This document shows, in pieces, positions 1 through 15,733 of a stretch of 64,000 nucleotides of DNA; positions within the stretch are counted from its first letter, which is position 1; each line of letters opens with the position of its first letter. Origin of the DNA: Aliiglaciecola sp. M165 (GTDB lineage Bacteria > Pseudomonadota > Gammaproteobacteria > Enterobacterales > Alteromonadaceae); contig NZ_VKKH01000002.1 in the NCBI RefSeq assembly GCF_007197995.1, positions 372,001 to 436,000 on the forward strand. Direction: 5' to 3'. The translations under genes were made by a program, and so were the position numbers. Under the pieces are notes generated by a model. It was given only the letters and a program-made list of their open reading frames with translations. It was not told the DNA's origin and did no database searches.

Positions 1-1738
1 TCAGAGCGTCAACGTACTCGCCGTCGTTAGCCGTTGTGGAAATCAACTGGCCATCGCGATAAACATCAACCTGTGCAGTCGTTGCTCCAGTCCAATTAAG
101 GCGAACATTTTGTAGCCCTTTTCGTTTGAAACCGTTTGCAGAAAGAGTGAAATCACCAGAAGGTGGTGGTGGCTCAACACCGCCACATACGTTAGCCGTT
201 AAATATGCGTCTGCAGCGGCTGCTTGAACAATACCGTAGCCAAAGTAAACGTCTTTGCCTGATGCACCGCCATCAAGGGCAGTTTGCTTCAGTGCATTAC
301 GTATATCTTCACCAGTACAGTTAGGGTGATTTGACCAAACAAGTGCTGCAATACCTGAAACAGTCGGTGTCGCCATTGATGTACCGCTTAAGAAGCCGTA
401 GTCACTAGAACCGATGGAGATATCCATAGTGCTTGCCGCCAAAAGTGCACTTCGATCTTCTAACGCCGCACCAACTGCAGGAATAGACGTCGTATTCGTG
501 TCGCCTAAGGTACCGTAAAGTATGCCGGGTTCGTTATTAATGATCACAGCGCCAACACCGCCAGATTGCTCGCAGTTATTCACCTTATCAAAAAATGAAA
601 CATTGCCTCTGTCGATCACACAAATTTTGCCATTGGCTCCGGCGTCTGTGGCTTCAGCCGTACCCATAAAATAGGTTTGCTGCGCAATACTGCCTGTATT
701 CTCCATCGCAGAGGAAGCAAATACACCACCATCAGCCGTTAGATTCGACGTGGTAGCCAAACCTGCTGGGAAGGTTGATAATGTGTCAACACCACCTGCT
801 GTCGCTTCCACACAAATCGTTTCATCTGTTGTAACACGTTTTCCACGTCCAGTTGTACAGGAAGGAAATTGTGAAAAGTCAGCGATTGCGTTGTTAGCGT
901 CGTTTGCCCCAATCATCATAACCGCAGAATAGCCCGCTGGATAAGAACGAACTGAGTTGCCGTCATTACCTGCTGCTGCGACAACCAGACCACCAGCTGC
1001 TTTAAACGCTTCGAAGGCATTTTCTTCAGTGCTGTTTGCACCACCGCCGCCGAGACTCATATTGATGATATTCGCACCGGCATCAGAACAAAGCTGGGCT
1101 GCTTTGGCAAGATCCGAAGAGTATCCCCATCCGTCAGCGTTAAATACTTTGATAATATGCATATCAACACCTGGCGCCATGCCAATGACACCAAAAGAAT
1201 TGTCTGCAGCACCAATGGTCCCGGCTACGTGAGTACCATGCTCTCCGCCAGCTTCAAACCAATTACCAGTGCCAGAATCATTATCACCTGTGACTTTATC
1301 CCATAGGAAGTCTGGATTAGACGCATCAAGTCCAGAATCAATTACACACACTTTCATACCAGCATTTGGGTTGAAGGTAACTTGATCAGCTTGAGCTTGA
1401 TAAAAACCATAGGGAGTGATCTGTTGAGTCATTGGGTCACCCAAATCATCGTTGAATAACGCCAATGGACGACGTACCTGGTCCACTTCTACGAGTTTTA
1501 CGTGAGGGTTATTTAACAATCCCTTGATTTGATCTAAGTTTTTTCCATCAAACTGCAATGCGATAAATCCGTCGCCTTCAACTTTGATTTCGCCACCGGC
1601 TTGACGAGCTAAATTTTTGACAATTCCTTTACCTGGATTATCAACTTGAACGATAACTCGTTCATTAGCTTGTAGGGTTGTTGTAGACAGTGCGAGGAGT
1701 GTAAATGAAACGAGGGGTTTAAGATTGAACTTCTTCAT
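1..1738 (-). CDS. Secreted S8 (subtilisin) serine protease, 3' end cut by window
   Basis: The reading frame is open from the ATG at 1738 to the left edge, so the C-terminus is missing (about 579 residues visible). A signal peptide of about 24 residues (MKKFNLKPLV...) starts it. The subtilase triad is visible: Asp134 in CVIDSGLD, His167 in HGTHVAG and Ser454 in GTSMATP. Between His and Ser lies an insert resembling a protease-associated (PA) domain, with paired cysteines. An inhibitor-I9-like propeptide fits residues 25-115. After the catalytic domain a Pro-rich linker leads into a fibronectin/PPC-like beta domain at the edge. It probably acts as an extracellular protein-degrading enzyme. No operon partner is visible; the next gene is 258 bp away. 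Confidence 0.93.
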   Translation of the reverse strand, partial: MKKFNLKPLVSFTLLALSTTTLQANERVIVQVDNPGKGIVKNLARQAGGEIKVEGDGFIALQFDGKNLDQIKGLLNNPHVKLVEVDQVRRPLALFNDDLGDPMTQQITPYGFYQAQADQVTFNPNAGMKVCVIDSGLDASNPDFLWDKVTGDNDSGTGNWFEAGGEHGTHVAGTIGAADNSFGVIGMAPGVDMHIIKVFNADGWGYSSDLAKAAQLCSDAGANIINMSLGGGGANSTEENAFEAFKAAGGLVVAAAGNDGNSVRSYPAGYSAVMMIGANDANNAIADFSQFPSCTTGRGKRVTTDETICVEATAGGVDTLSTFPAGLATTSNLTADGGVFASSAMENTGSIAQQTYFMGTAEATDAGANGKICVIDRGNVSFFDKVNNCEQSGGVGAVIINNEPGILYGTLGDTNTTSIPAVGAALEDRSALLAASTMDISIGSSDYGFLSGTSMATPTVSGIAALVWSNHPNCTGEDIRNALKQTALDGGASGKDVYFGYGIVQAAAADAYLTANVCGGVEPPPPSGDFTLSANGFKRKGLQNVRLNWTGATTAQVDVYRDGQLISTTANDGEYVDAL

Positions 1739-1996
1739 AGGTATTACCTAACTACTTGTTGTAAAAGACTTAAATATGGAAATCCATACTCGTCTTTATT
1801 AATTATAATTATATTTTTTAATACACTGAATTTATTCAGCGAAGAGGCACACTAGTATATTTGAGATGAATTGACAAGATTACAAGATGGATGGCTTTGA
1901 TTTTTTTCTAATCACTTAGGTGGAAAACCAATCAAAACAAATAATTAGAATAGGATCTCGAATTTGGGAAAATATAATTACCCAAGCAAAATTTAC

Positions 1997-2950
1997 TCAA
2001 CGAGCAATAAACCCAGCTTTGACTCCATTTTCTAAATCAAATTGGTCACCCACTGAGCCGACGACAACATTTTGTCGACTTGCCCCAAGCAAACCACGCA
2101 ATGAATACAGTGCGTCGATCCCTGTGCAGTGTGCACCGATTATTTGTGTAAGCCCAAATGATTTCAGTTTATTTGCAGTCCAATCTAAATGCTCATCACT
2201 GGCGCTAACCAGATGAAAGCCGCCGATAGCAGTCGATATCGGACCTGGGTGTATGTGTTTGGTAATGTGTTGCATGGTATTAATGATACCTGCATGACCA
2301 CAGCCGGAAATCAGCACAAAGCCTTTTTCAGTATCGATAACTAAAGACATATCTTCTGGAATAGTGTCTTCAATTTCTCCCTGTGCGGTTTTAATTAAGC
2401 CTCGGCCACTCCAATTGCGTTCGTTATGGATACGTTCCACATTACCAGTCAGCCAGACGCCAGGAAATATCTCAGTGACCTGTTCATACTCAATAAATTC
2501 AACACCCGCATCTATCAATTTCTGCTTATCGTTTAAAGCGCGATTTTGATAATTTGCTCTAGGCAAGAATATGCCTTTTCCAACATGTACTCGCTTTAGT
2601 GCATTCGGGTTTTTCTTTATTAATTCAGTGCGTAAGGCCAGCAGTCCGCCGGTATGGTCGCCATGGTTATGACTCAGGATAACGTCTTCGACTTCTGACA
2701 AATCGATGTCGAGATCTTTGGCATTTTTTAGTACGGTATCTCGACGGTTTCCTGTATCAAAAAGGATTTTTTTTCCATCAACCTCAATAAGCGCTGAATA
2801 ACCCCATTCACCGATCCCCCGACTAGCTAGCATGGTTGACAGCGTCGTCACTTTCAAGGCGCTTACTTTATTGTATTGATGACCAGAATCCGTGGCTGAA
2901 AATGCGTTAAGACTGACCGAAAATAGCAGCAGAATTAGATACTTGGACAT
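1997..2950 (-). CDS. Secreted metallo-beta-lactamase-fold hydrolase
   Basis: About 317 residues. The signature HNHGDHTGG (HxHxDH) binds the metal centre, and later Asp/His ligands (SGCGHAG, IGAHCTG) fit the family. The overall arrangement resembles the COG1237 group, annotated as dihydropterin-phosphate synthase-like hydrolases, but with an exported N-terminus. I place the start at 2950 because the protein then begins MSKYLILLLF, a good signal peptide; an in-frame start six codons earlier would spoil it. The product is probably periplasmic. The substrate cannot be read from the sequence. It stands alone, divergent from the GST-like gene to its right. Confidence 0.82.
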   Translation of the reverse strand: MSKYLILLLFSVSLNAFSATDSGHQYNKVSALKVTTLSTMLASRGIGEWGYSALIEVDGKKILFDTGNRRDTVLKNAKDLDIDLSEVEDVILSHNHGDHTGGLLALRTELIKKNPNALKRVHVGKGIFLPRANYQNRALNDKQKLIDAGVEFIEYEQVTEIFPGVWLTGNVERIHNERNWSGRGLIKTAQGEIEDTIPEDMSLVIDTEKGFVLISGCGHAGIINTMQHITKHIHPGPISTAIGGFHLVSASDEHLDWTANKLKSFGLTQIIGAHCTGIDALYSLRGLLGASRQNVVVGSVGDQFDLENGVKAGFIAR

Positions 2951-3116
2951 GATTTGAATTCCATTCAAAGCAAAATAACAAATGAGATGAAAACCATCTT
3001 ACCCACTAAACAATAAAATACAAACCTCGGTTAGTAATACGGAAATCCTGCCAACTGTTTTTATTATCATCGCTTTTTCTGCTACTTTGAGCTAAACAAC
3101 TTCAAAGAGCATTACG

Positions 3117-3893
3117 TTGAAACGTCCACTTTTACATTCACTCAATTTTGCCAGCTCAATGCTTGGCACCCTACTTCGCACAGGAACGGGTATCAGCGTG
3201 ACACCCGCCAAAATCAAACCTGAGAAGTTGTTGAAGCTTTACGAATTCGAAGCTTGCCCTCATTGTCGCTTGGTCAGAGAGGCGCTGACTGAATTGGATT
3301 TGGATGCAGAGATTTACCCTTGCCCAAAAGGCGGCGAGCGCTATCGTCCAGACGTCGAAGAACTTGGTGGTAAAGCCCAATTTCCATTTTTAGTGGACCC
3401 CAACAACGATACAAAGATGTACGAATCTTTTGACATAATCAAATACCTTTTTGAAACTTATGGACAAAGATCTGTACCACTAAAATGGCAACTGCAACCC
3501 ATTCATACATTTAGCTCTTCACTGGTAAGCACAGCAAGAATCGGCGTCGGAAAAAACAAAAAGTCATCGACTGCGCCTGAACAATTGTTGGAACTTTATA
3601 GCTTTGAGTCGAGCCCTTTTGCCCGACTCGTGCGAGACACTCTATGTGAACTGGAGATTCCTTATATCTTGCGCAATTGCGGTAGAACCGAATTGGGCGA
3701 ATGGTTGATCCCACCGGTTAGAGATATGCTCAACATTCATCCACAAAGCAAGTTATACAATCGTATCGCGTTGCAAGAAAAAACCGGGCGAATGTCGATT
3801 CCTTACCTTATCGACTCTAACAACGACGTAGCCATGTTTGAAGCGGCTGAAATTGTTGAGTATTTAAACTACACCTATGGAGATCATACGTAA
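3117..3893 (+). CDS. Tandem GST N-terminal / glutaredoxin-like domain protein
   Basis: 258 residues made of two copies of a thioredoxin-fold GST-N domain, at about residues 36-118 and 150-255. The first copy carries a redox motif CPHC (Cys47, Cys50). In the equivalent place the second copy has SSPF, so only the first can be redox active. Both copies keep the FPFLVD/IPYLID and MYES/MFEA turns typical of glutathione-binding domains. The start is TTG at 3117 with AAAGAG about 8 bp upstream; an ATG at 3162 is an alternative. It lies 165 bp upstream of the borosin methyltransferase on the same strand; whether the two are co-transcribed is unknown. Confidence 0.75.
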   Translation: MKRPLLHSLNFASSMLGTLLRTGTGISVTPAKIKPEKLLKLYEFEACPHCRLVREALTELDLDAEIYPCPKGGERYRPDVEELGGKAQFPFLVDPNNDTKMYESFDIIKYLFETYGQRSVPLKWQLQPIHTFSSSLVSTARIGVGKNKKSSTAPEQLLELYSFESSPFARLVRDTLCELEIPYILRNCGRTELGEWLIPPVRDMLNIHPQSKLYNRIALQEKTGRMSIPYLIDSNNDVAMFEAAEIVEYLNYTYGDHT

Positions 3894-4058
3894 GCACAAC
3901 TTGATCCCCATGTGAAGCAAGGGCACACGGTTAATACAAACATAGACTAAAGGTGTAAGAAAAAACCATTAACAAAACAGTAGAACTCCTCTATAGTTTG
4001 CCGAAGGGTTTACGCCGCATAGCTTCATGCACCCTTAAGTTCAAAGGAAAAGGACGAA

Positions 4059-4877
4059 ATGAACCAACACCCAAAAGGATCACTGGTCGTAGTAGGTACT
4101 GGCATCACAGTATCAGGACAAATGACCTTGATTAGCGAGAGTGTGATCAAAAACGCCGACATCGTGTTAGCTGTTGTTACCCAATCTGCACACATTAATT
4201 TGCAAATGCTGAATCCAAACACTCATTGCCTGCGTCACCATTATGAGCAAGGTAAATCCCGTGTGATCACCTATCAAAAAATGAAACAGCGTATCATCGA
4301 TGAAGTAAAAGCTGGTAAGCGTGTTGTTGCCGCATTTTATGGTCATCCAGGAGTATTTGTTAACCCTTCTCATAAGGCTATTGTTGAGTTGAATGAGGCT
4401 GGTTATGAGGCTGAAATGCTGCCGGGGATATCGGCGGAGGATTGTTTAATAGCTGATTTAGGTTTGGACCCCTCTCACTATGGTTGTCAAAGCTACGAAG
4501 CCACACAGTTTTTATTGCGCCAATATACTATCGATCCTTACATGATGCAGATCATTTGGCAGATTGGCAGCATAGGTGATTTTACGTATAACAAAGAAAA
4601 AGCTGAACACCCTGGACTCAATGTACTTAGGGACAGGCTACTGCAATCCTACCCATGCGATCACGAAGTCATAGTTTATGAAGCATCAACGATCCCAGTA
4701 GCTAAGCCGAGAATTGAAAAGGTCCTGCTCAGAAATTTAGGCACGGTCATTCCTAAGGGCATAAGCACACTAGTAGTCCCTTCTTTAGGTCTCCCAGAAT
4801 TTGATATAGATGTCATGTCCAAGCTGGATTTAACCCCCGAAATGTTTAACAAAACATTATCTGAAACGCCAAATTAA
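4059..4877 (+). CDS. Borosin-type peptide backbone alpha-N-methyltransferase (split borosin, SonM-like)
   Basis: 272 residues of the tetrapyrrole-methylase (SAM) fold, but the details fit borosin RiPP enzymes (OphMA, SonM) rather than porphyrin or corrin methylases. Visible features are the N-terminal GSLVVVGTGI loop, the set Tyr62-x5-Arg68-x3-Tyr72 (same spacing as the catalytic Tyr66/Arg72/Tyr76 of OphMA), YGHPGVFV (94-101), PGISAEDCL..DLG (122-135), a YGCQSYEAT segment (141-149) and IIWQIGSIGD. These enzymes use SAM to methylate backbone amides of the C-terminal core of a precursor peptide. A good ribosome site (AGGAAAAGGA) precedes the ATG. The precursor gene follows 62 bp downstream. Assignment is by remembered family motifs, not by a search. 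Confidence 0.9.
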   Translation: MNQHPKGSLVVVGTGITVSGQMTLISESVIKNADIVLAVVTQSAHINLQMLNPNTHCLRHHYEQGKSRVITYQKMKQRIIDEVKAGKRVVAAFYGHPGVFVNPSHKAIVELNEAGYEAEMLPGISAEDCLIADLGLDPSHYGCQSYEATQFLLRQYTIDPYMMQIIWQIGSIGDFTYNKEKAEHPGLNVLRDRLLQSYPCDHEVIVYEASTIPVAKPRIEKVLLRNLGTVIPKGISTLVVPSLGLPEFDIDVMSKLDLTPEMFNKTLSETPN

Positions 4878-4939
4878 CTATGTGTCAACCAAGATGCTAA
4901 TAGTTGATACTTAAACCAAAAAGAAAAAAGGAACCGACA

Positions 4940-5149
4940 ATGGCTGATAAACTCGTCAAATTTTTGATAACAATGGACAAAGATGAAGATCTTAAAAAAA
5001 AATACCTTGCTGATCCAGAAGGTACTGCCAGATCATTTAGTCTAAATGAAGAAGATGTTCAGATTTGTGCGAAAAATGATCTCGAAAGCATGAAACAACG
5101 CTGTGAAGCTGAAGGTGCTGACAATGTACAAATTGACTGCTCGAAATGA
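4940..5149 (+). CDS. Split borosin precursor peptide (SonA-like)
   Basis: 69 residues. I start at the ATG at 4940 because AAAAAGGAA lies about 7 bp upstream; the longer frame from 4904 begins with an implausible basic stretch. Residues 3-53 match the helical borosin-binding domain of SonA: an LxxFL...D.DLKKKYLADPE segment, then an SLNEEDVQ...DLESMKQ segment. The last ~15 residues would be the core, ending NVQIDCSK. Val63 and Ile65 are the best methylation candidates because they fall where SonA carries its two N-methyl groups (remembered as positions 63 and 65). Automated annotation could call it a LigA-like dioxygenase subunit because the binding domain shares that fold. No protease gene is adjacent. 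Confidence 0.87.
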   Translation: MADKLVKFLITMDKDEDLKKKYLADPEGTARSFSLNEEDVQICAKNDLESMKQRCEAEGADNVQIDCSK

Positions 5150-5179
5150 CATAGTCGTCTAGTTGATAAGAGATATCTT

Positions 5180-8100
5180 ATGGTTAGCTTAAGACATTTG
5201 GGAGCGATACTATACTTGCTGATCATTCCTTATGTGTCTGCTCAAGATTCAATTGAAATTGATAATCTTTTGCAAACAGCAGAAGCAAATGTCTTTGCTA
5301 ACCCTACACTAGCTAACAAACTTCTTGATCAAGCTGAAAACTACCTGACAGGAAACAACAACCCCTCCTTGGAAGCTCATGTTCTGAATTTACAAGGACA
5401 TCTGTATATTCTTGAAGGAAATTACGAGAAAGCTTATGAGAAAGTGATACAGGCTGAAGAATTAGCCAGTAAAAGTGGTAATAAAATACAACAGGCAGAA
5501 GCAATTCGTCGACAAGGAATTATCACAAGTTTGCTCGATCTTCATGGTGAATCACTGGAGCTCCTGAGCAAAAGCCTTGAAATTCATCAATCGCTCGACA
5601 GCAAATATATCCAAAACAACTTACAAGCTATTGGAAATCTATACGCGGATTCTCCGCAATGGGCTGATGATCTCATTGAAACAGGCGAACTTTTAGTTGC
5701 GGAAGCCGTAAAGCGAGGTAATAGCCACTTTGAAGAGCAAGGTTACACTTTCATTGTTTCGGGAATGATTAAGAAAAGCCAAATTGCTGAGGCAGAAACT
5801 GTCCTTCAAACGGTTGTCAAAGACCCCAAGAATCCTCCGCCAATGATCGGATATTACCTAGCTCAAACGATGTTAAAGCTCGGTGATTATGAGGCTGCTT
5901 TAGCTACGATCGAGAAAATATTACAAGATTCGATTGAAGGAAATTACAAGTTTAGGCAACTTGCAGCGAGTTCTCTTAAGTCAGAAATTTTGTTAGCTGT
6001 AAATAACATAGAAGAAGCTAAAACGTCATTAAATTGGTCGCTAAATCTGGCTCAAGAATTGAGTTTTGGTAAATTCCAAATTGAATCATTGCAGGGACTT
6101 GCCAATATCGCATTCAAAGAGCAAAACTATAAACTTGCCTTTGACTTGCAAAAACAATACTCAGAAATCCAACAACGAGTATTTGACACCCGTCAATCAG
6201 AGCAATTAGCTTTCAATCGGGCACGCTTAGAGACCGAGCAAAAAATCCAGCAAATCACTGAATTGCAACTCAATCAAAAGTTAGCGTCACAACAAAATAG
6301 ATTTCAAATTTCTATTATCGCAACGGCTGTCGCCATTGCGACTTTGCTACTGATTCTATTTGTGCGAACAACCCAACAAAAACGCACGTTGCGCGTATTA
6401 GCAGATAACTTGAAACAAGCAACGGATGCAAAATCGGACTTCCTAGCGCGTATGAGTCATGAAATTCGCACCCCAATTAACGCTATCGTTGGGTTAACCA
6501 AATTGACCCAACGCTCTGAGCTCAACCAGGAACAAGAAACCAATTTAAGTCAGATTGAACAATCTTCACAAACGCTGCTGTCCGTCATCAATGACATTCT
6601 GGATTTTTCTAAAATAGAGGCAGGAAAACTCGACATTGAAACGGCTCCATTTGAGCTGGATAAGTTGGTTGAGCAGGCCATCGATTTGCATGCGTTGAAA
6701 GCCCGTGAGAAGCGTATTGAATTGATTCAATATGTCGCACGAGACGTACCTTTGCACATTGAAGGAGACGCATTCCGCATCCAGCAGGTGTTAAACAATT
6801 TGCTCAGTAATGCACTTAAATTCACCGAACAAGGGCTGATTTCAGTGTCGGTGAATAAAAAGTATTCTGAGCAAGGCGTATTGCTTGAGTTTTCGGTCAA
6901 AGACACTGGCATTGGCTTGTCCGAAGAACAAATAGAGACCTTGTTTGATGCGTTTACTCAAGCAGACGAATCCATTACTCGCAAATATGGCGGCACCGGA
7001 CTTGGGCTCTCTATTTGTCAGAATTTAGTCTCTCTGATGGGTGGTGAAATATGGGTCGAAAGCAAACCAAGGCAAGGTGCTACGTTTTACTTCACCGTGC
7101 TAGTTGACGCATATCAACAACTGGAAGAAAACGCCGTTGCGGATGGGTTAAATTTATCGGACCTGAAAGTGCTCGTTGTTGATGATGTTGTTTTATCGCG
7201 CCAAGCCATTGCTGAAGCCTTATTGCGTATTGGCATCAATCCTGATTTGGCAAGTGGAAGTAATGATGCACTATTAAGTATGCGCCGGGCGGCACTAGAA
7301 AATGCCCCCTACGATTTAGTTATTTTGGATTGGAAAATGGCTGATGTAAATGGCATTGAGCTAGCAGCCATCATTAATCAAGAGTTTACTCTCAATAAGC
7401 CCAAAATCATCATGCTTTCTGCCTTTGATATTCAATCCCTAAAAGAACTAGGACAACCGCTTGGCATAAAACATTATTTGCAGAAACCGATAAATAGCAG
7501 TTCGCTGTTGAACTGTTTGTTAAGTGCTACAAAACAATCCCAATCAAGCTTAATCAAATCTGAAAACGTGGCCCCTGAGACGCCAGATTTCTCAAATGTC
7601 CATATATTGTTAGTTGAAGATGATGAGATCAATCGCAAAGTTGCCAGGTTCTTTTTAGCAGACACCCACGCCAAAATTTCCGTTGCAGAAAATGGGTTGA
7701 TTGCCCTACAAATGTTGGCTGGTTCGCATCAATATGATCTGGTTCTAATGGATATGCAAATGCCCATCATGGATGGCTTAACTGCTACACAGAAAACCCG
7801 TGAAGAGCTCAAGCTTGACATACCGATAGTTGCCATGACAGCTCATGCATTACAAACCGAGATTGAAAAGAGTTTTGCTGTTGGGGTCAATGCACACCTG
7901 ATCAAACCTGTTCAAGCGGCTCATTTGTATCAAGTGATTCAAGAACAATTGGATGGCAGAAACGAAGTAAAATTGTTGTCACCCAATACACTTCAAATGC
8001 CGACAGAAAATGAGCAAAGTGCATTACTCACTGTCGACAGAGAAAAAGCCATAAAACTTTTCAATGATGACGAAAAAGTCTACGCAGTTATGGTTAAGAC

Positions 8101-8359
8101 GTTTGTTGACATGCACGACGAGGTTAAAAACCTTGCCAAAGCACTAGAGAAACAGGATCTGAACGCCATCGCTGCCACTGTGCACTCGTTTAACTCAGCG
8201 GTTGCCTACATCGGCGCCTACCATTTGATGGCGGAAGCGGCACAAATTGAAAGGGCGGCAAAAGATCCTCAAAATAACAATTTAGAAGCCGTATTAGCCC
8301 GCGCTGAACGATTCAAACAACTAATTTTGGAACTTGTGAAAAAGCTCTCTGCCGAGTAG
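5180..8359 (+). CDS. TPR hybrid sensor histidine kinase with two receivers and HPt
   Basis: 1059 residues. A signal peptide (1-21, ending VSAQD) is followed by a TPR-rich sensor to about residue 370, a transmembrane helix (375-395), and a cytoplasmic HisKA domain with phospho-accepting His427 in SHEIRTP. The HATPase has an N box (NNLLSNALKFT), DTGIGLS and GGTGLGLSI. Receiver 1 has phospho-Asp717 and receiver 2 has Asp858 in LVLMDMQMP. A C-terminal HPt domain has His1002 in VHSFNSA, a looser motif than the usual HSLKGS. The TPR sensor therefore faces the periplasm. It begins 30 bp after the borosin precursor on the same strand, so probably shares its transcript. No separate DNA-binding response regulator is nearby. 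Confidence 0.93.
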   Translation: MVSLRHLGAILYLLIIPYVSAQDSIEIDNLLQTAEANVFANPTLANKLLDQAENYLTGNNNPSLEAHVLNLQGHLYILEGNYEKAYEKVIQAEELASKSGNKIQQAEAIRRQGIITSLLDLHGESLELLSKSLEIHQSLDSKYIQNNLQAIGNLYADSPQWADDLIETGELLVAEAVKRGNSHFEEQGYTFIVSGMIKKSQIAEAETVLQTVVKDPKNPPPMIGYYLAQTMLKLGDYEAALATIEKILQDSIEGNYKFRQLAASSLKSEILLAVNNIEEAKTSLNWSLNLAQELSFGKFQIESLQGLANIAFKEQNYKLAFDLQKQYSEIQQRVFDTRQSEQLAFNRARLETEQKIQQITELQLNQKLASQQNRFQISIIATAVAIATLLLILFVRTTQQKRTLRVLADNLKQATDAKSDFLARMSHEIRTPINAIVGLTKLTQRSELNQEQETNLSQIEQSSQTLLSVINDILDFSKIEAGKLDIETAPFELDKLVEQAIDLHALKAREKRIELIQYVARDVPLHIEGDAFRIQQVLNNLLSNALKFTEQGLISVSVNKKYSEQGVLLEFSVKDTGIGLSEEQIETLFDAFTQADESITRKYGGTGLGLSICQNLVSLMGGEIWVESKPRQGATFYFTVLVDAYQQLEENAVADGLNLSDLKVLVVDDVVLSRQAIAEALLRIGINPDLASGSNDALLSMRRAALENAPYDLVILDWKMADVNGIELAAIINQEFTLNKPKIIMLSAFDIQSLKELGQPLGIKHYLQKPINSSSLLNCLLSATKQSQSSLIKSENVAPETPDFSNVHILLVEDDEINRKVARFFLADTHAKISVAENGLIALQMLAGSHQYDLVLMDMQMPIMDGLTATQKTREELKLDIPIVAMTAHALQTEIEKSFAVGVNAHLIKPVQAAHLYQVIQEQLDGRNEVKLLSPNTLQMPTENEQSALLTVDREKAIKLFNDDEKVYAVMVKTFVDMHDEVKNLAKALEKQDLNAIAATVHSFNSAVAYIGAYHLMAEAAQIERAAKDPQNNNLEAVLARAERFKQLILELVKKLSAE

Positions 8360-8395
8360 AGACATTTAGTTCAACAAAAGGCTGAACGATAAAAT

Positions 8396-9328
8396 TTACG
8401 ACATTTCTGTAAGATCAAGTCGCAAACTATTTGCAACATGCGCCTTAAAAGCCGTAGCCGCCTCGAAGATTTGCTTTCCTTTTGGTGACACCCAATACCA
8501 ACTATTGGGGATAGGAAAGTTGACAACAGGTAACTCAATTAAATTGCCCGGTGCCATGTGATTTAACGCATGACGGCTAAGAATGGCAATCCCCAAGCCT
8601 GCCATAACAGATTCTTTTATCGCCTCGTTACTTGCCACGGTAATAGGGCTTTGCATGCGATAACCATGTTGAGCAAAAAATTGTTCGATTGCATAGCGTG
8701 TGCCTGACCCCTGCTCTCGCATTAACAAACGTTCATCGTATAGTTGATCCCACGATATGTGCTTTTCATTTCCCAGTTTATGTTCTTGCTTGGCAATAAC
8801 GACAAGGGGGTTTTTAGTCAGAAATTCAGCTTCAATATCCAGTTCTCGCGGAGGATTACTAAATACGTATAGATCATCCATATTATGTTTTAAACGCTCA
8901 ATGATTTCCGCTCTGTTACCAATCTGAAATTCCGGTTCGATACCCGGATATTGTTCACAAAACTCGCCAAGCCAGCGAGGAATAAGATATTTGGCGGTTG
9001 TCACCACACTTATTCGCAAATGTCCCAACGACAGCCCTGCTCGTTGCGCCAAACGCGTTTCCAAGTTATCCATTACAGCAAATAATTTGCGGGTCGCATC
9101 AAGGACTTCTTGGCCCGTGTCAGTTAAATAGAGCTTTTTCGAAATTTGCTCAAATAAACGACAATTCAGTGCTTCTGCGAGTTTTGCTATTTGGGTAGAG
9201 ACTGTTGGCTGTGCCAGATGTAACACTTTTGCTGCATGGGTGACGCTGCCATGATCGGCAACGGCCATAAAGATTTCAAGCTGGCGAAAAGTAGTTTGGC
9301 GGGTATGGAGACGACGTGACCAACTCAT
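8396..9328 (-). CDS. LysR-family regulator, CbbR-like, of the bicarbonate transporter
   Basis: 310 residues with an N-terminal winged helix-turn-helix (about 15-75; SVTHAAKVLHLAQPTVSTQIAKL) and a periplasmic-binding-like effector domain. The sequence resembles CbbR-type LysR proteins, which respond to carbon status. It is divergent from the SbtA-type transporter gene with 103 bp between the starts, the usual arrangement for a LysR protein and its target. A GATAAT-N6-ATTATC inverted repeat lies in that gap. Function as the regulator of sbtA-sbtB is inferred from position. Confidence 0.88.
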   Translation of the reverse strand: MSWSRRLHTRQTTFRQLEIFMAVADHGSVTHAAKVLHLAQPTVSTQIAKLAEALNCRLFEQISKKLYLTDTGQEVLDATRKLFAVMDNLETRLAQRAGLSLGHLRISVVTTAKYLIPRWLGEFCEQYPGIEPEFQIGNRAEIIERLKHNMDDLYVFSNPPRELDIEAEFLTKNPLVVIAKQEHKLGNEKHISWDQLYDERLLMREQGSGTRYAIEQFFAQHGYRMQSPITVASNEAIKESVMAGLGIAILSRHALNHMAPGNLIELPVVNFPIPNSWYWVSPKGKQIFEAATAFKAHVANSLRLDLTEMS

Positions 9329-9354
9329 ATATCTATAATAATCTATGATAAATT

Positions 9355-9372
9355 GATAATAAATCGATTATC
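9355..9372. promoter_or_regulatory. Candidate LysR operator between regulator and sbtA
   Basis: Inverted repeat GATAAT-AAATCG-ATTATC in the 103-bp divergent region, with further GATAA-like half-sites on its left. Dyads with this spacing are typical of LysR operators. No binding evidence is available. Confidence 0.4.
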
Positions 9373-9431
9373 ACAAATATAAAAAATCATTACAATACTC
9401 CCTCATTGTTTACCAAATCACAGATTCGCAG

Positions 9432-10433
9432 ATGGATTTTTTATACGATTTTTTAATGCGTTTACTTACGCAGTTTCAATCCCCTACCTTAGGATTTCTA
9501 ATCGGCGGTATGCTTCTAGCCGCAATGGGCAGCAAACTGGCGATCCCGGACGCAATCTACAAATTTATCGTGTTCGTACTGCTTATGAAAATTGGTATTA
9601 AAGGCGGCATGGAAATTCGCGATGCGAATTTAGCTGAAATGCTGCTACCTGCTTTTTTCGCAATGGTGATAGGCGTTGTCATTGTGCTCATCGGGATCTT
9701 TGTTTTCTCTTTACTGCCCAGTATTAAAAAAGAAGATGGTTATGCCACTGCGGGCTTGTTCGGTGCAGTAAGTGCTTCGACTTTTGCTGCGGTGATGGTG
9801 GTCATGGAAGAAGAATCAATACCCTATGAAGCGTGGGTTCCAGCCTTGTATCCTTTCATGGACATTCCCGCCCTTGTATTGGCTATAGTATTGGCAAATA
9901 TCTATTTGAAAAAACAAAAAGAAGGCAATGAAACCAAAGTCGATGTTTGGGGTATAGTTAAGGATAGCCTGCAAGGATCTGCGTTATCTGCGCTACTGCT
10001 TGGTTTGGCATTAGGTTTATTGACAATGCCAGATCGGGTATTTGATAGTTTTTATGAGCCGCTGTTTCGTGGCTTTCTTTCAATTCTAATGCTAATTATG
10101 GGAATGGAAGCCTACTCACGAATAAATGAGTTGAGGCGTGTTGCTCATTGGTATGCGGTATACGCATTCTTTTCACCCATCGCGCACGGGTTGCTTGCCT
10201 TCGGACTCGGTTATATCGCCCATCATACTGTCGGCTTTAGTCCAGGGGGTGTGATTTTACTTTCTGTTATGGCAGCCTCAAGCTCTGATATCTCTGGGCC
10301 TCCAACATTGCGTAGCGGAATTCCTTCGGCGAATCCATCAGCCTATATTGGTGCTTCGACAAGCGTAGGAACACCTGTTGCTATAGCGATATGTATTCCA
10401 TTATTCATCGTGTTAGCGCAAGCTGTTTTTTAA
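9432..10433 (+). CDS. sbtA: SbtA-type sodium-dependent bicarbonate transporter
   Basis: 333 residues, almost entirely hydrophobic, with about ten membrane segments in two related halves separated by a short charged cytoplasmic loop (KKQKEGNETKVD). Family features include the QSPTLGFLIGGM start, GLFGAVSASTFAAV in the first half and SVMAASSSDISGPPTLR in the second half, the substrate and sodium site region of SbtA proteins. It would import bicarbonate with sodium across the inner membrane. The PII-like gene 33 bp downstream matches the SbtA-SbtB pairing known in cyanobacteria. In a heterotroph the bicarbonate would feed carboxylases. Confidence 0.87.
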   Translation: MDFLYDFLMRLLTQFQSPTLGFLIGGMLLAAMGSKLAIPDAIYKFIVFVLLMKIGIKGGMEIRDANLAEMLLPAFFAMVIGVVIVLIGIFVFSLLPSIKKEDGYATAGLFGAVSASTFAAVMVVMEEESIPYEAWVPALYPFMDIPALVLAIVLANIYLKKQKEGNETKVDVWGIVKDSLQGSALSALLLGLALGLLTMPDRVFDSFYEPLFRGFLSILMLIMGMEAYSRINELRRVAHWYAVYAFFSPIAHGLLAFGLGYIAHHTVGFSPGGVILLSVMAASSSDISGPPTLRSGIPSANPSAYIGASTSVGTPVAIAICIPLFIVLAQAVF

Positions 10434-10466
10434 AATACGTAACGATTCATATTAGGATAAAACATT

Positions 10467-10787
10467 ATGACTCTTCATGTAGCAGAAAAGGTGGTCATTA
10501 TCACCGAAAAAATTATCGCCAAGGGTGTGTGCAACATTATTGAATCATGTGGTGCTACCGGTTACACCCTATTTGCCGCGGGTGGCAAGGGCAGTAGAAA
10601 CAATCGTTCAACCGCCCAGCGCTCGTCAGTAGTAGACGATTTTGCTAATGTTCAAATCGAAATAATCGTAAACAATTACTCTATGGCGGAGGAAATCATG
10701 GAAAAGGTCAGGCAAACCTATTTTAAAAATTATTCAGGTATTACCTACCTTGAAGATATTAAAATTCTGCGGCCAGAGAAGTTCTGA
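10467..10787 (+). CDS. PII-like protein (SbtB type)
   Basis: 106 residues with the PII trimer fold pattern: an N-terminal KVVIITEKI strand, a loop in the T-loop position (GGKGSRNNRST) and a C-terminal YLEDIKIL strand. The classical uridylylated Tyr of GlnB is not evident, and the C-terminal Cys pair of cyanobacterial SbtB is absent. SbtB proteins bind adenyl nucleotides and inhibit SbtA. It follows the transporter by 33 bp with AGGATAAAA as ribosome site, so the two form an operon. Confidence 0.82.
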   Translation: MTLHVAEKVVIITEKIIAKGVCNIIESCGATGYTLFAAGGKGSRNNRSTAQRSSVVDDFANVQIEIIVNNYSMAEEIMEKVRQTYFKNYSGITYLEDIKILRPEKF

Positions 10788-10826
10788 AATTGATTTCTTC
10801 GCATAACCTGGCATTGAATAAATTCA

Positions 10827-11471
10827 TTAACTTGAGGGCATCGGGAATGCCAGCATTTCTCCGGCACCAATAGTAAAAAGCCATAACCCATAGAGACTGT
10901 GCTCAATTGAAGTTGTCATGACAGACTGCGATCGCGCATAGGTATTGGCGAACAACAATCCACCCAAAAAGGTCAGTACTAACACCAGATTGTTCCAAAA
11001 CATTAAATGCGCTAAACAGAATAAACTGGCATTTAACAATATAAACAGCTGCTGGTTAGGAACAAGATCTTTATAACGCCAAAAAAAAAACTGACGATAA
11101 ATGACTTCTTGAGGATAGACGGAGATAACCACATAAAACACACTGATTAACACCCAAAACCAGGTATGTTGTAAGGGCATAATAAATAGTTTTTCTGGGT
11201 TGGTTATATACACCCACGCCGCACTGGCAATCGCGAAAGTAACAAATCTCAACAACACCCAGTACCTATTGCTGATATTGCCCAAACCAACAGACAACGT
11301 TATCGAAAATTGTTTACCCCAATGCATGATTCGTATTAAGTACACCAATCCAACCAGAACCATTGCTAGCTTGGTCCATATTGGTAGTGGCATGCTCAGA
11401 GACACCGGTAACAATATAAACAGTGTTAGACATTCAACAAGACGGAACATAGATGAGTGATTAGTTATCAT
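10827..11471 (-). CDS. CPBP-family intramembrane metalloprotease
   Basis: 214 residues with about six membrane helices. The family motifs are visible: EVIYRQFFFW (the EExxR-like motif, here QEVIYRQ with one Glu), CLAHLMFWN (FxxxH) and EHSLYGLW. CPBP (CAAX/Abi) proteins are membrane proteases or scaffolds with varied roles, including bacteriocin self-immunity. There is no recognisable partner: it sits convergent to the PII gene and 139 bp from the GntR gene. Confidence 0.75.
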   Translation of the reverse strand: MITNHSSMFRLVECLTLFILLPVSLSMPLPIWTKLAMVLVGLVYLIRIMHWGKQFSITLSVGLGNISNRYWVLLRFVTFAIASAAWVYITNPEKLFIMPLQHTWFWVLISVFYVVISVYPQEVIYRQFFFWRYKDLVPNQQLFILLNASLFCLAHLMFWNNLVLVLTFLGGLLFANTYARSQSVMTTSIEHSLYGLWLFTIGAGEMLAFPMPSS

Positions 11472-11610
11472 TGCAAGTCACGGCAGCCAGTGTGCTTTTG
11501 CCAAGGTAAATCAAAGAATAAACTACTTGTGAGGGGGCAGTGAAGATTATTTTGTCACGGTGCGATAAAACAAAAAGTAAAAGGCGATGATAGAACACCG
11601 CCCAAGAGAA

Positions 11611-12348
11611 TTAGTTTACTAAATGGCTCAATGAATAGAGGTCTCGAGTTTGACTGGTTTTTTTACGCACTTCCTCGAGGGCTTCTGCCTCACTGATTGC
11701 AAAAAGTGCATTGATCAAGCGATTAAAGTGCTCATGCATTGCTGACCTTGCCGCCTGAGAATTTTTATCCAGAAGAGCTTGATAAATCGCTTTGTGTTCT
11801 TCTAATCGATCACTATCAGACTGGCTGCAGACACCTGCATAAGCCGCAGTGATATGGGGTAGCGAATCCCTTAACGCCCAGAATTTTCTTACTGCCAATA
11901 GGATAGCGTTATTCCTTGTCGCGTTAGAGATTATGAGATGAAATTCACGATCCGCTTTTTCCGCCTCGATACCAGACTCCATCGCATCCAGGGTTTTTTT
12001 CAAGGCTGCCAGCTCTTCTTGAGTGATTGACATCGCCGCCAAAGCAGCCGCCTCGCCTTCTACTAGTGCGCGAGCTTGGGTAAGCTCAAAAGCACTGATT
12101 TTTTCAGCGTTTTCTTCGTCGTTGTCTTTCTCTTTTTCGAGAACGTACACACCTGAGCTCGTTTTCACTTCAACAAGTTGCATGACTTCTAAAGCGATTA
12201 TGGCTTCACGTATTGTTGGGCGGCTTACATCGAATGTTTCAGCAAGTTCACGCTCTGGTGGCAATCTACTGCCTGGTGGATACAACCCAGACTCTATTAA
12301 TGCCTCAATTTTCTCTGCAATTTGCCAGAACATACGACGGCTTTTCAT
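11611..12348 (-). CDS. FadR-subfamily GntR regulator of the alginate locus
   Basis: 245 residues. The N-terminal winged helix is at 8-75 (RELAETFDVSRPTIREAIIALE) and is followed by a helical FCD ligand domain with the expected Asp/His metal ligands (REFHLIIS, MHEHFNRL). FCD regulators of uronate catabolism bind sugar acids and leave short TNGTNxACNA-type palindromes. It is at the edge of the alginate locus, and palindromes of that class (TTGGTATTACCAA and variants) precede several genes in the locus. An AAGGG ribosome site precedes the ATG. Control of the locus is inferred. Confidence 0.85.
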   Translation of the reverse strand: MKSRRMFWQIAEKIEALIESGLYPPGSRLPPERELAETFDVSRPTIREAIIALEVMQLVEVKTSSGVYVLEKEKDNDEENAEKISAFELTQARALVEGEAAALAAMSITQEELAALKKTLDAMESGIEAEKADREFHLIISNATRNNAILLAVRKFWALRDSLPHITAAYAGVCSQSDSDRLEEHKAIYQALLDKNSQAARSAMHEHFNRLINALFAISEAEALEEVRKKTSQTRDLYSLSHLVN

Positions 12349-12778: not shown

Positions 12779-15733
12779 TCAAAATCGATAACTTGCACCG
12801 AATGTGATTCGACGGTCAGTCAAACCCTGGAAGCACAACAAAGCGCCCTCGTTAACACAATATTGGTCAACATCAGATTCAGTCAAGTTAACCGCTTCAA
12901 TACCCACGTTTAGTTGTTCATTCACATCGTAAGTGACGCTGGCATTAAGTTGCCCTCTATCGTCTTGAACCACAGGGAAGCCCCATGGGAAGCTGGTAGT
13001 ACTACCAAAATCATCGGAACGATAAGCCTCGCGCCATGTATAACGCATTCTAGCGGAAAGACCATGCTTCTCGTAGTAAAGCGTAAAGTTATACGCGTTT
13101 TCAGATAGATCGATGAGTTGTTGCACCGCCGTCACATCAATATCTGCAACACCTGTTGTCGCTGCGAATACCGCGCTAGCTCGACTAGTTGCGCTATCTA
13201 CCGCTTCACCACCGGAGAATTCTTGCTTGGTGTAGTTAGCAAGAATACCAAAACCTGATGCCCAACCTAACTCATCTTCAAAGCCAGCTAGGTCATATTG
13301 AAAGGCAATTTCGATACCTTTTTGGGTGGTTTCTCCAGTGTCATTAATTGTCGTTGAAGAGGGTACACACACACCTGGAGGAGTTCCTTCTGGCCCAAAT
13401 ACATTTACGTCAGCAATTGGGTTGAAAACCCCACCGCCCTCGCACGGCGCAGTCAGGTCACGAAATCCGGTGATTGGATCTTCAATCGGATTGACTTGTT
13501 GAGTTACGTGCAGGTCGGTACGTTTTTTATGGAAAAAACCAATGCTTACCACGCTTGCTTCAGCAAAATACCACTCGGCAGAAATATCAAATGACGTCAC
13601 TTCTTCAGGTACTAAACCGGGGTTACCGATTTGTACTGGAGGATTTGGGCTGGTGCTAAACGTCACTGACGTAGATAGTTCGTCAAAGTCAGGGCGTCGA
13701 ATATCTTTACCCCAGGCTGCCCTAACAACGACATCATCAGTTACATCTGCAACGATATTAATTCGCGGTAAAACGAAGTCATAATCACCAGTGGTTGTGA
13801 CTTGTGTTACCACATCATTGCCATCGGCATCTTCGGTAATAGAGTTGCCTAACGATGTTACTTCAGTTTCTAAATAGCGTAACCCGAAGTTACCTCTAAC
13901 ATATTCCGTTTCAAAATTTGCCTGCGCATACAACGCATCGGTTTCTTCTTCAATGTCAAAGAAAGCCGCTACTTCTGAAGTTGGCTCTTCCAGGGGCCTT
14001 GATCCTCCGTGTGTTTCGATGGCTTGAGCAAGAGTGCTGAACACTCGATCTGGATCAGAAGCAACTTGCTCTGGATCAACAAGCAGGAAGTCTTTAACAA
14101 AAAGGCTTCTACCATCTGCATCACCAAAATTATCTGGCCCTGGTGCAAGAATATCAGCAAACAACGAGCCTCTTGGACTGTCTTCCATCGTTCTTAACCC
14201 AAGATTACGTCGAACTTGATCAGTAGTGCTGGTGCTTTTGTTGTAGCGGTATCCGAAATCTACCGTTGTGATGACAGACCAATTCAAATCGTATGTAAAG
14301 TCGGTACGAAACGCATCTTCAGAGTTTTCAGTAATGTCGTTAGCCGCTTGCACGTCTCTTAGCACGACATTGTTCGGATCAAGCAGTTGGGCCGGTGTAG
14401 GCGCCATAGGCGAATCAAATGCAATACCAAAGGCTAATGAACCGCCAGTAAGATCGTACTCAAAAGGTACACTGTTATCGTTGCTGCCACCTTCATCAAG
14501 TGGAGCGTTGGGGTTAATAAAGTTCAATGTAGTGTTAACCCGCGGGTTACTCGAATCTGAGCTAGAAGAAGAGGCCTCAACAGAGACATTTAAACGATCT
14601 CCTTGCCACTCACCACCAATGCGGAATATCTCACTTTCAGTGACCCGTGAATTGGTGTCACTAGAAAAACGAAGATTTGGATCGTCGTCATCACTGGCCA
14701 AATCAATTGGAATGACTCCCCGAAGCGCAGCCTGAATACTACCAAGTTCAACACCATCTAAAGAACCAAAGTTAACCGTTTCAAACTCATCGGGAACTGA
14801 AACGCCTCTGAGACTGCTGACACCGGACGCTTGAACTCTTGAACTTTCTTCCCTGCGATCTTGATCATTGATAACTACATCAAACCAAAGCCGAGTATTG
14901 TCGTTAGGTGCCCATTCCAATGTACCGACAATATTTGTGGTTTCATATTCAAAGTTATCATAGTCTTGATTGAGAAATTGAATCGGTAGGAAATCGAAGC
15001 TCTGGGCACTAGCGGAGCCGCTATCTGAGGTGACAACATTGTCGCGGTCTACACGAGGACGAAACGCGCTGACATCTTGTTCAGAATAACTTGCGCTTAG
15101 CACAACACCGAACCTACCGTTATCGGTATTCCAATTGTCGCCCCATGTGCCCGATATTCTTGGCGTAACACCATCGGTAGAGAGGCTACTATCCTCGCCT
15201 TGAACTCTAACGGCTAACAAAGTTTCGTCCAATTGCAGTGGTCGAATTGTCCTAAGGTTTATAGTACCACCCACTGAGCCTTCAATCGTTTTCGCTTCTG
15301 GTGATTTAACCACTTCAACACCTGAAATGATTGATGCAGATACGTCTTCAAAATCAATACCACTGCGACCAGCTCCTGAGCCAACGGTTGATACACCATT
15401 TATCTCTGTGCGATTTGAGTTAGTACCACGTATTTGCACGCCGGTACCAACGCCCGCAGAACGGGTGATTTGGATACCTGTAATGTTTTCAAGCACTTCA
15501 GCCAAATTTTGATCGGGGAGTTTACCGATATCCTCAGCCTGAATAACTTCGATTAAATTGTTCGCCGATCGTTTTTCGGCAAGGGCGTTAGTTAATGCGC
15601 TACGAATTCCTGTGACTTCGATGATTTCTGTGGATTCGTCAGCGCCGCTTTGAGCATCTTGCGCTTGTGCTGCAATACTCAGCGTGGTTGCTGAAAGCAC
15701 CGCCACTGCAATTTTTGATAATTTGTGTCCCAT
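12779..15733 (-). CDS. TonB-dependent receptor (alginate oligomer uptake, inferred)
   Basis: 984 residues. A signal peptide ends near QAQA, followed by a TonB-box-like IIEVTGIR and a plug domain with LPDQNLAEVLENITGIQ and IRGTNSNRTEING. A long 22-strand barrel follows, ending in an aromatic residue (FGASYRF). This size class of receptors in Alteromonadales imports glycans. It is divergent from the CBM32-PL7 lyase gene across a 576-bp regulatory region and beside the GntR regulator, which supports alginate oligosaccharides as substrate. AGGACAAACT precedes the ATG. Confidence 0.92.
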   Translation of the reverse strand: MGHKLSKIAVAVLSATTLSIAAQAQDAQSGADESTEIIEVTGIRSALTNALAEKRSANNLIEVIQAEDIGKLPDQNLAEVLENITGIQITRSAGVGTGVQIRGTNSNRTEINGVSTVGSGAGRSGIDFEDVSASIISGVEVVKSPEAKTIEGSVGGTINLRTIRPLQLDETLLAVRVQGEDSSLSTDGVTPRISGTWGDNWNTDNGRFGVVLSASYSEQDVSAFRPRVDRDNVVTSDSGSASAQSFDFLPIQFLNQDYDNFEYETTNIVGTLEWAPNDNTRLWFDVVINDQDRREESSRVQASGVSSLRGVSVPDEFETVNFGSLDGVELGSIQAALRGVIPIDLASDDDDPNLRFSSDTNSRVTESEIFRIGGEWQGDRLNVSVEASSSSSDSSNPRVNTTLNFINPNAPLDEGGSNDNSVPFEYDLTGGSLAFGIAFDSPMAPTPAQLLDPNNVVLRDVQAANDITENSEDAFRTDFTYDLNWSVITTVDFGYRYNKSTSTTDQVRRNLGLRTMEDSPRGSLFADILAPGPDNFGDADGRSLFVKDFLLVDPEQVASDPDRVFSTLAQAIETHGGSRPLEEPTSEVAAFFDIEEETDALYAQANFETEYVRGNFGLRYLETEVTSLGNSITEDADGNDVVTQVTTTGDYDFVLPRINIVADVTDDVVVRAAWGKDIRRPDFDELSTSVTFSTSPNPPVQIGNPGLVPEEVTSFDISAEWYFAEASVVSIGFFHKKRTDLHVTQQVNPIEDPITGFRDLTAPCEGGGVFNPIADVNVFGPEGTPPGVCVPSSTTINDTGETTQKGIEIAFQYDLAGFEDELGWASGFGILANYTKQEFSGGEAVDSATSRASAVFAATTGVADIDVTAVQQLIDLSENAYNFTLYYEKHGLSARMRYTWREAYRSDDFGSTTSFPWGFPVVQDDRGQLNASVTYDVNEQLNVGIEAVNLTESDVDQYCVNEGALLCFQGLTDRRITFGASYRF

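Follow-up and report, generated by a model that had tools for sequence, protein, structure and literature searches.

Three neighbouring genes in a 64,000-nucleotide stretch of the Aliiglaciecola sp. M165 genome (the window; contig NZ_VKKH01000002.1, positions 372,001 to 436,000) raise two questions: whether the first two encode a peptide-modifying enzyme and its substrate, and why a large sensor kinase is encoded directly behind them. The earlier note, which ended at position 5149, had read the first two as a split borosin locus, a backbone N-methyltransferase with a separate precursor. Both open reading frames, 4059–4877 and 4940–5149 on the + strand, are where it placed them, and the pairing of enzyme with precursor stands, but the conserved TPR sensor gene at 5180–8359 had been left out. 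The three genes are as follows.

4059–4877, + strand: methyltransferase gene, 272 aa
4940–5149, + strand: precursor gene, 69 aa
5180–8359, + strand: TPR hybrid histidine kinase gene, 1059 aa, with Pfam HisKA, HATPase, two receiver domains and Hpt

With 62 bp between methyltransferase and precursor, 30 bp between precursor and kinase, and all three genes on the + strand, the genes most likely form a single operon. The sole terminator-like site found between 3850 and 5300 falls inside the methyltransferase gene, in a scan where such sites occur at chance level, and promoter and terminator scans around the window genes gave signals no better than chance. Rfam returned no match in positions 1–12000. 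Neither a transporter nor a protease adjoins the three genes in the list of open reading frames and their Pfam matches. The protein encoded directly upstream of the methyltransferase (3117–3893, + strand) has two glutaredoxin/GST N-terminal-like domains in Pfam; such a gene does not adjoin the methyltransferase in the loci L033, L034 or L035. Farther downstream, positions 12779–36528 encode two TonB-type receptors, lyase-like and heparinase-like proteins, a sugar kinase and a transporter, presumably a polysaccharide-use-like cluster.

The enzyme is best understood through its match to known borosin methyltransferases. A phmmer search against the PDB gave SonM at 2.3e-60 and OphMA at 1.6e-53, and the E value of the SonM match excludes chance. 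In an alignment of 147 borosin-type methyltransferases, Tyr62, Arg68 and Tyr72 of the window enzyme fall on SonM Tyr58, Arg67 and Tyr71, bearing out the catalytic set proposed in the earlier note, and the motifs YGHPGVFV and PGISAED that it had picked out are both in the methyltransferase sequence. Tyr94, Glu147, Trp167 and Gln168 fall on SonM Tyr93, Glu146, Trp166 and Gln167 in the same alignment, so that each of the seven positions checked from the SonM active site or lock has the SonM residue, every column being kept in 145–147 of the 147 rows. For OphMA, R72 and Y76 are named as mutants in PDB titles, and we take Y66 to be the third residue of its catalytic set. The available part of the SonM paper reports lower activity for the mutants Y58F, R67K, Y71F and Y93F and describes the contacts of E146, W166 and Q167 (PMC8429565). 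Judged from its sequence, the window enzyme very probably methylates the backbone of its small partner peptide.

The only Pfam label of the enzyme, TP_methylase (7e-20), together with a LigA match of the precursor that lies below threshold (2.6e-4), would also allow a pair made up of a corrin or porphyrin methylase and a LigA-type dioxygenase subunit, a reading to which we give practically no credence. The best corrin-type match in the PDB, siroheme synthase, reaches 1.2e-3 against 2.3e-60 for SonM, and the enzyme scores far under the cut-offs of the NCBIfam corrin models. A tree was built from 49 borosin-type representatives and, from the window's own genome, three housekeeping TP-methylases, which were found with PF00590 and which we assign from their sequences to CysG, SUMT-like and RsmI. 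The three housekeeping enzymes form a separate branch (SH-aLRT 95), which speaks against the corrin/porphyrin methylase (CysG/SUMT/RsmI-type) assignment and settles in favour of borosins the phylogenetic check that the earlier note had proposed; the window enzyme clusters with those of L033 and L034 (SH-aLRT 99). A LigA dioxygenase subunit was rejected as well: the match scores 21.5 bits against a cut-off of 25.3, and the neighbours of the gene are the methyltransferase and the kinase, not LigB. SonA itself was labelled 'LigA domain-containing protein' by the PDB depositors, so automated labels may mislead rather than stay blank. The earlier note had expected the labels tetrapyrrole methylase and hypothetical protein.

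By sequence alone the precursor is only weakly like SonA, residues 6–53 aligning with SonA 5–52 at E 0.1. An AlphaFold2 model built from 13 aligned precursors (mean pLDDT 78.5) predicts five leader helices, at residues 4–14, 16–24, 26–32, 37–44 and 48–58, and divides the peptide as follows.

4940–5113, + strand: leader, predicted five-helix borosin-binding domain, residues 1–58 (AlphaFold2)
5114–5146, + strand: free tail, residues 59–69 (11 residues), likely core, predicted disordered from residue 59
5126–5128 and 5132–5134, + strand: Val63 and Ile65, candidate methylated residues

The best 27 PDB matches of this model are all SonA chains, with DesB and OphMA chains coming next. The SonA matches have high probabilities of 0.75–0.99 but E values of 0.39–2.3, values of that size being usual for a domain this small. 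The predicted fold supports the precursor as a SonA-like borosin-binding domain; the alignment of the leader with SonA claimed in the earlier note therefore holds as a match of predicted folds, and as a sequence match it is weak. Its view that the C terminus is short enough to be a core agrees with the 11-residue tail, which lacks predicted structure from residue 59.

The label of type IV split borosin fits by the definition in the available part of the SonM paper (PMC8429565). The window has a borosin-family enzyme with the SonM active-site set, an adjacent separate precursor and a predicted five-helix leader, and the pair is a new member of this type. That the locus encodes borosin biosynthesis is near certain by homology.

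Which residues carry the methyl groups is less firmly indicated. SonA is methylated at Leu63 and Ile65 (PMC8429565, available part). The window tail reads Val63-Gln64-Ile65 and that of L034 reads Ile63-Gln64-Trp65, and by analogy our guess is that Val63 and Ile65, or perhaps residues next to them, are methylated; the sites are unsure because the leader alignment to SonA is offset by one residue. Each of the seven closest complete loci (L033, L034, L035, L067, L068, L069 and L085) has a precursor of 67–72 aa encoded between its enzyme and its kinase, and tails in the group of the window are 8–14 residues long. Elsewhere, a short open reading frame behind the L083 methyltransferase at 6965–7762 (− strand) and one in L037 at 8799–9071 (− strand) carry repeated tail units of the SHKALIITPK type, which look like several putative cores per precursor.

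The third gene encodes a protein with a signal-like start, as seen in the sequence by eye, whose first part is divided as follows.

5246–6307, + strand: predicted periplasmic TPR ectodomain, residues 23–376 (Pfam TPR_12 3.9e-11, AlphaFold2)
6308–6364, + strand: hydrophobic stretch, residues 377–395, seen in the sequence by eye

Residues 377–395 are likely a membrane helix between ectodomain and kinase. The ectodomain model is a helical repeat with a mean pLDDT of 88. Its best PDB match is to eukaryotic LGN/Pins at 1e-8, with Rap and NprR lower at 7e-6 to 2e-4, and the likeness to Rap and NprR is weak because TPR folds are generic. Against its own genome, the window ectodomain finds itself and three matches at E 0.12–0.21, the best of which is the sensor of a second borosin locus, and its profile matches the ectodomains of other borosin loci.

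The position of this sensor gene, directly behind enzyme and peptide, suggests that the peptides serve as signals. By homology to SonM/SonA, the methyltransferase would grip the precursor through its helical leader and, with SAM, methylate backbone amides of the tail. The methylated tail would be cut off by a protease encoded elsewhere and would reach the periplasm or the medium, where N-methylation may aid by conferring protease resistance and membrane permeability. The tail peptide, whether the cell's own or from neighbours, may then bind the periplasmic TPR domain of the kinase and change the phosphorelay. In related bacteria this type of TPR domain is coupled with a diguanylate cyclase or a simpler kinase, or it has no output domain. 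We lean, with modest confidence, towards the methylated tail being the ligand of the TPR ectodomain and the operon being a peptide-signalling module with a dedicated receptor, the signalling part of which we infer.

The same locus could instead make a methylated precursor that is never cut and that acts inside the cell as a modified small protein, perhaps bound to its enzyme. The lack of a protease or exporter beside the window genes would suit that, as would the very short tails of 8–14 residues in the group of the window; yet the sensing domain of the linked protein is predicted to lie on the periplasmic side, and the precursors have no signal peptide that would carry the whole protein there, and we consider an uncut product quite improbable.

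The link between enzyme and sensor recurs across genomes. The order methyltransferase–precursor–TPR hybrid kinase is kept in the loci of the nearest enzyme relatives (56, 53 and 50% identity), where the outer genes differ, and in 7/7 of the closest complete loci. A methyltransferase match below 1e-40 was found in 25 of 60 relatives (31/60 at 1e-3), and 95 of the 394 genomes drawn from the taxonomic order have one at 1e-20. Flanks were taken at 129/144 places from the 394-genome draw and at 15 further places from the 60 relatives, and the order-level stretches yielded 141 methyltransferase genes. A same-strand TPR-ectodomain neighbour accompanies 126 of these 141, against 10 of 699 background genes (those three or more genes distant), so that the gene of the putative TPR receptor is genetically tied to the peptide gene; the figure of 126 is helped by construction because neighbours of this kind supplied the sequences for the ectodomain profiles. 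GGDEF or kinase neighbours alone, counted without ectodomain profiles, give 112/141 against 16/725. Genomes of one genus are not independent in any of these counts, and p-values are therefore not to be taken at face value.

Most of the 15 misses have a visible arrangement of their own. Three lie near contig ends (L070, L108 and L126). In four, another methyltransferase gene separates them from the sensor or sits alongside both (L173, L212, L037 and L077), and three are ordered methyltransferase–GNAT–precursor–GGDEF (L102, L107 and L183). Sensor and precursor are on the opposite strand in L099, and near the L083 gene lies another methyltransferase that has a sensor of its own; L125, L167 and L178 have no sensor at the methyltransferase. 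The methyltransferase-like domain of L178 (600–2516, + strand) sits within a 638-aa protein, a fused form in a different setting. When the 147 enzymes are clustered, an output-domain sensor occurs in 3/7 clusters at 40% identity and 21/27 at 50%, the link being weaker among the most divergent. Outside the order, a class-level draw gave a TPR neighbour for one of seven methyltransferases (L205). A scan of genome contigs with a single protein found one distant relative among 33 candidate stretches. In L218, L220 and L222, two or three TPR proteins of 353–365 aa, with signal-like starts and no output domain, stand in a row behind precursor and methyltransferase.

What varies among the 126 TPR neighbours is the output: 90 have GGDEF, 21 a kinase and 15 no output domain. 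Profile comparison matches window-type with GGDEF-type ectodomains at 99.9% over 389 columns, GGDEF-type with output-less ones at 99.9%, and short-kinase with output-less ones at 100%. Repeat proteins can match through the repeat alone; these alignments span most of the ectodomain length. Because kinase, GGDEF and output-less ectodomains match by profile, the ectodomain is the constant part of the sensor. Pfam TPR_12 was found in 11/14 GGDEF-type and 8/8 output-less members scanned, and a simple hydropathy rule finds a signal-like start in 92 of 97 ectodomains and a membrane stretch before the output domain in 89 of 97. On the enzyme tree, the GGDEF, kinase and no-output labels need seven changes; with the housekeeping enzymes as a fourth group, eight changes are observed against a shuffled mean of 24.9.

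These outputs bear on the possibility that the borosin is an ordinary secreted product, for example antagonistic or metal-binding, and that the sensor reads some other cue and controls production or a matching behaviour. The output of a kinase could control its operon, fungal borosins such as omphalotin are bioactive (PMC8429565, available part), and in L207 and L208, from the class-level draw outside the order, an MFS-transporter-like gene stands behind the enzyme in place of the sensor; sensors without an enzyme exist too, as do some enzymes without a sensor. GGDEF proteins (90/126) and proteins with no output (15/126) are, however, not obvious operon regulators, and a sensing domain that stays constant while the output changes points to a shared ligand. 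We hold a secreted product of this kind to be unlikely, though still a serious contender. The signalling reading can be widened to the split borosins of the order as a whole: they may be ribosomal peptide signals with a methylated backbone rather than antibiotics, with a dedicated family of periplasmic TPR receptors and with N-methylation replacing an export and processing system through the membrane permeability and stability that it confers. Evolution may have connected the receptors with c-di-GMP synthesis or phosphorelays, or left them without an output. We offer this joint generalization tentatively and would not be surprised to see it fail; against the signal reading stand three orphan sensors and the linkage of one in seven outside the order.

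The orphans emerged when the ectodomain profiles were run against the 60 relatives. The window-type profile gave five matches below 1e-100 before a drop to 3e-31, and all but one of these are encoded behind a borosin methyltransferase. The remaining match, in G023:C14, has no adjacent methyltransferase or precursor, and none was found in that genome at the cut-off used. The GGDEF-type profile gave 28 matches below 1e-40, all in methyltransferase-bearing genomes, and 26 of them are within about 4 kb of the methyltransferase by coordinates; for the sensors in G006:C14 and G022:C112 there is no methyltransferase within about 4 kb. The G022:C112 orphan is flanked by what we take to be yhbY-like and FKBP-like genes, and at the corresponding site the window's genome has its second borosin locus, so the orphan looks like a sensor kept after enzyme and precursor were lost. 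Other signalling systems have orphan receptors too, and the three sensors here show that a sensor of this kind can exist alone. Many genomes, whether or not they have the enzyme, give weaker ectodomain matches (1e-13 to 1e-31), as TPR sensors in general would lead one to expect.

Tail and sensor also co-vary. Across 59 GGDEF loci, the partial correlation between tail and sensor, given the enzyme, is 0.58 for the ectodomain and 0.57 for the output domain, against 0.26 for the leader; a stricter set (n = 18) gives 0.45 and 0.48 for ectodomain and output domain, and 19 kinase loci give 0.20 and 0.16. Such co-variation in sequence shows tail and sensor travelling together, not contact.

L036 (G000:C23:78000-94000), the other borosin locus in the genome of the window, spans 5028–9878, and its enzyme is 41% identical to that of the window. 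Its genes run pepsin-like aspartyl protease (Pfam Asp 1.2e-13), GNAT acetyltransferase, methyltransferase, precursor and TPR/GGDEF sensor, and its precursor has an acidic C-terminal follower. A pepsin-like protease occurs within three genes of 27/141 methyltransferases and a GNAT within two genes of 51/141. We know of no role assigned to bacterial pepsins (shewasins), and that the pepsin-like protease removes borosin leaders is a guess.

Because most of these enzymes in one order have a sensor gene next to them, the function of these borosins becomes directly testable. If the signalling reading is true, there is a physiological purpose for methylating the backbone of ribosomal peptides, and a form of peptide signalling is added for Gram-negative bacteria; if false, the locus remains a clean new enzyme–substrate pair with a very short tail. 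Literature searches gave one marine RiPP review for borosins together with histidine kinases and no match that joins an N-methylated RiPP peptide to a diguanylate cyclase, and 'borosin' is absent among the matches listed for GGDEF, tetratricopeptide and diguanylate literature. The available main text of PMC8429565 does not contain 'GGDEF', 'cyclase', 'operon', 'TPR' or 'histidine kinase'. A borosin operon with a TPR hybrid kinase is thus a variant for which we found no earlier description, in a search that later borosin papers fall outside.

Among known systems, Rap and NprR with their pheromones come closest to the proposed logic, a TPR domain being encoded beside a small peptide gene, and their likeness to the window TPR domain is one of fold only (E 7e-6 to 2e-4). 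Rap and NprR work inside the cytoplasm, with peptides that are not known to carry N-methyl groups. In RcbA/RcbB of Vibrio vulnificus, a TPR domain controls a GGDEF enzyme together with a second TPR protein; these proteins are predicted to be cytoplasmic, and the word methyltransferase is absent from the available main text (PMC12282931). The fungal enzymes OphMA and dbOphMA share the methyltransferase domain (E 1.6e-53) and a leader-like clasp fold with the window pair, but there enzyme and substrate are one chain, whereas here they are two separate adjacent genes 62 bp apart, a split that the earlier note had rightly likened to SonM/SonA. SonM/SonA of Shewanella oneidensis MR-1 is alike in its separate genes, active-site residues and predicted leader fold (PMC8429565, available part); the window enzyme is only about 40% like SonM-type enzymes, and its tail differs. 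The enzymes of L105 and L096 are 98.8 and 98.5% identical to SonM and have a GGDEF-form TPR sensor behind the precursor, so that SonM/SonA very probably follows the same pattern, with a GGDEF protein as sensor where the window has a hybrid kinase.
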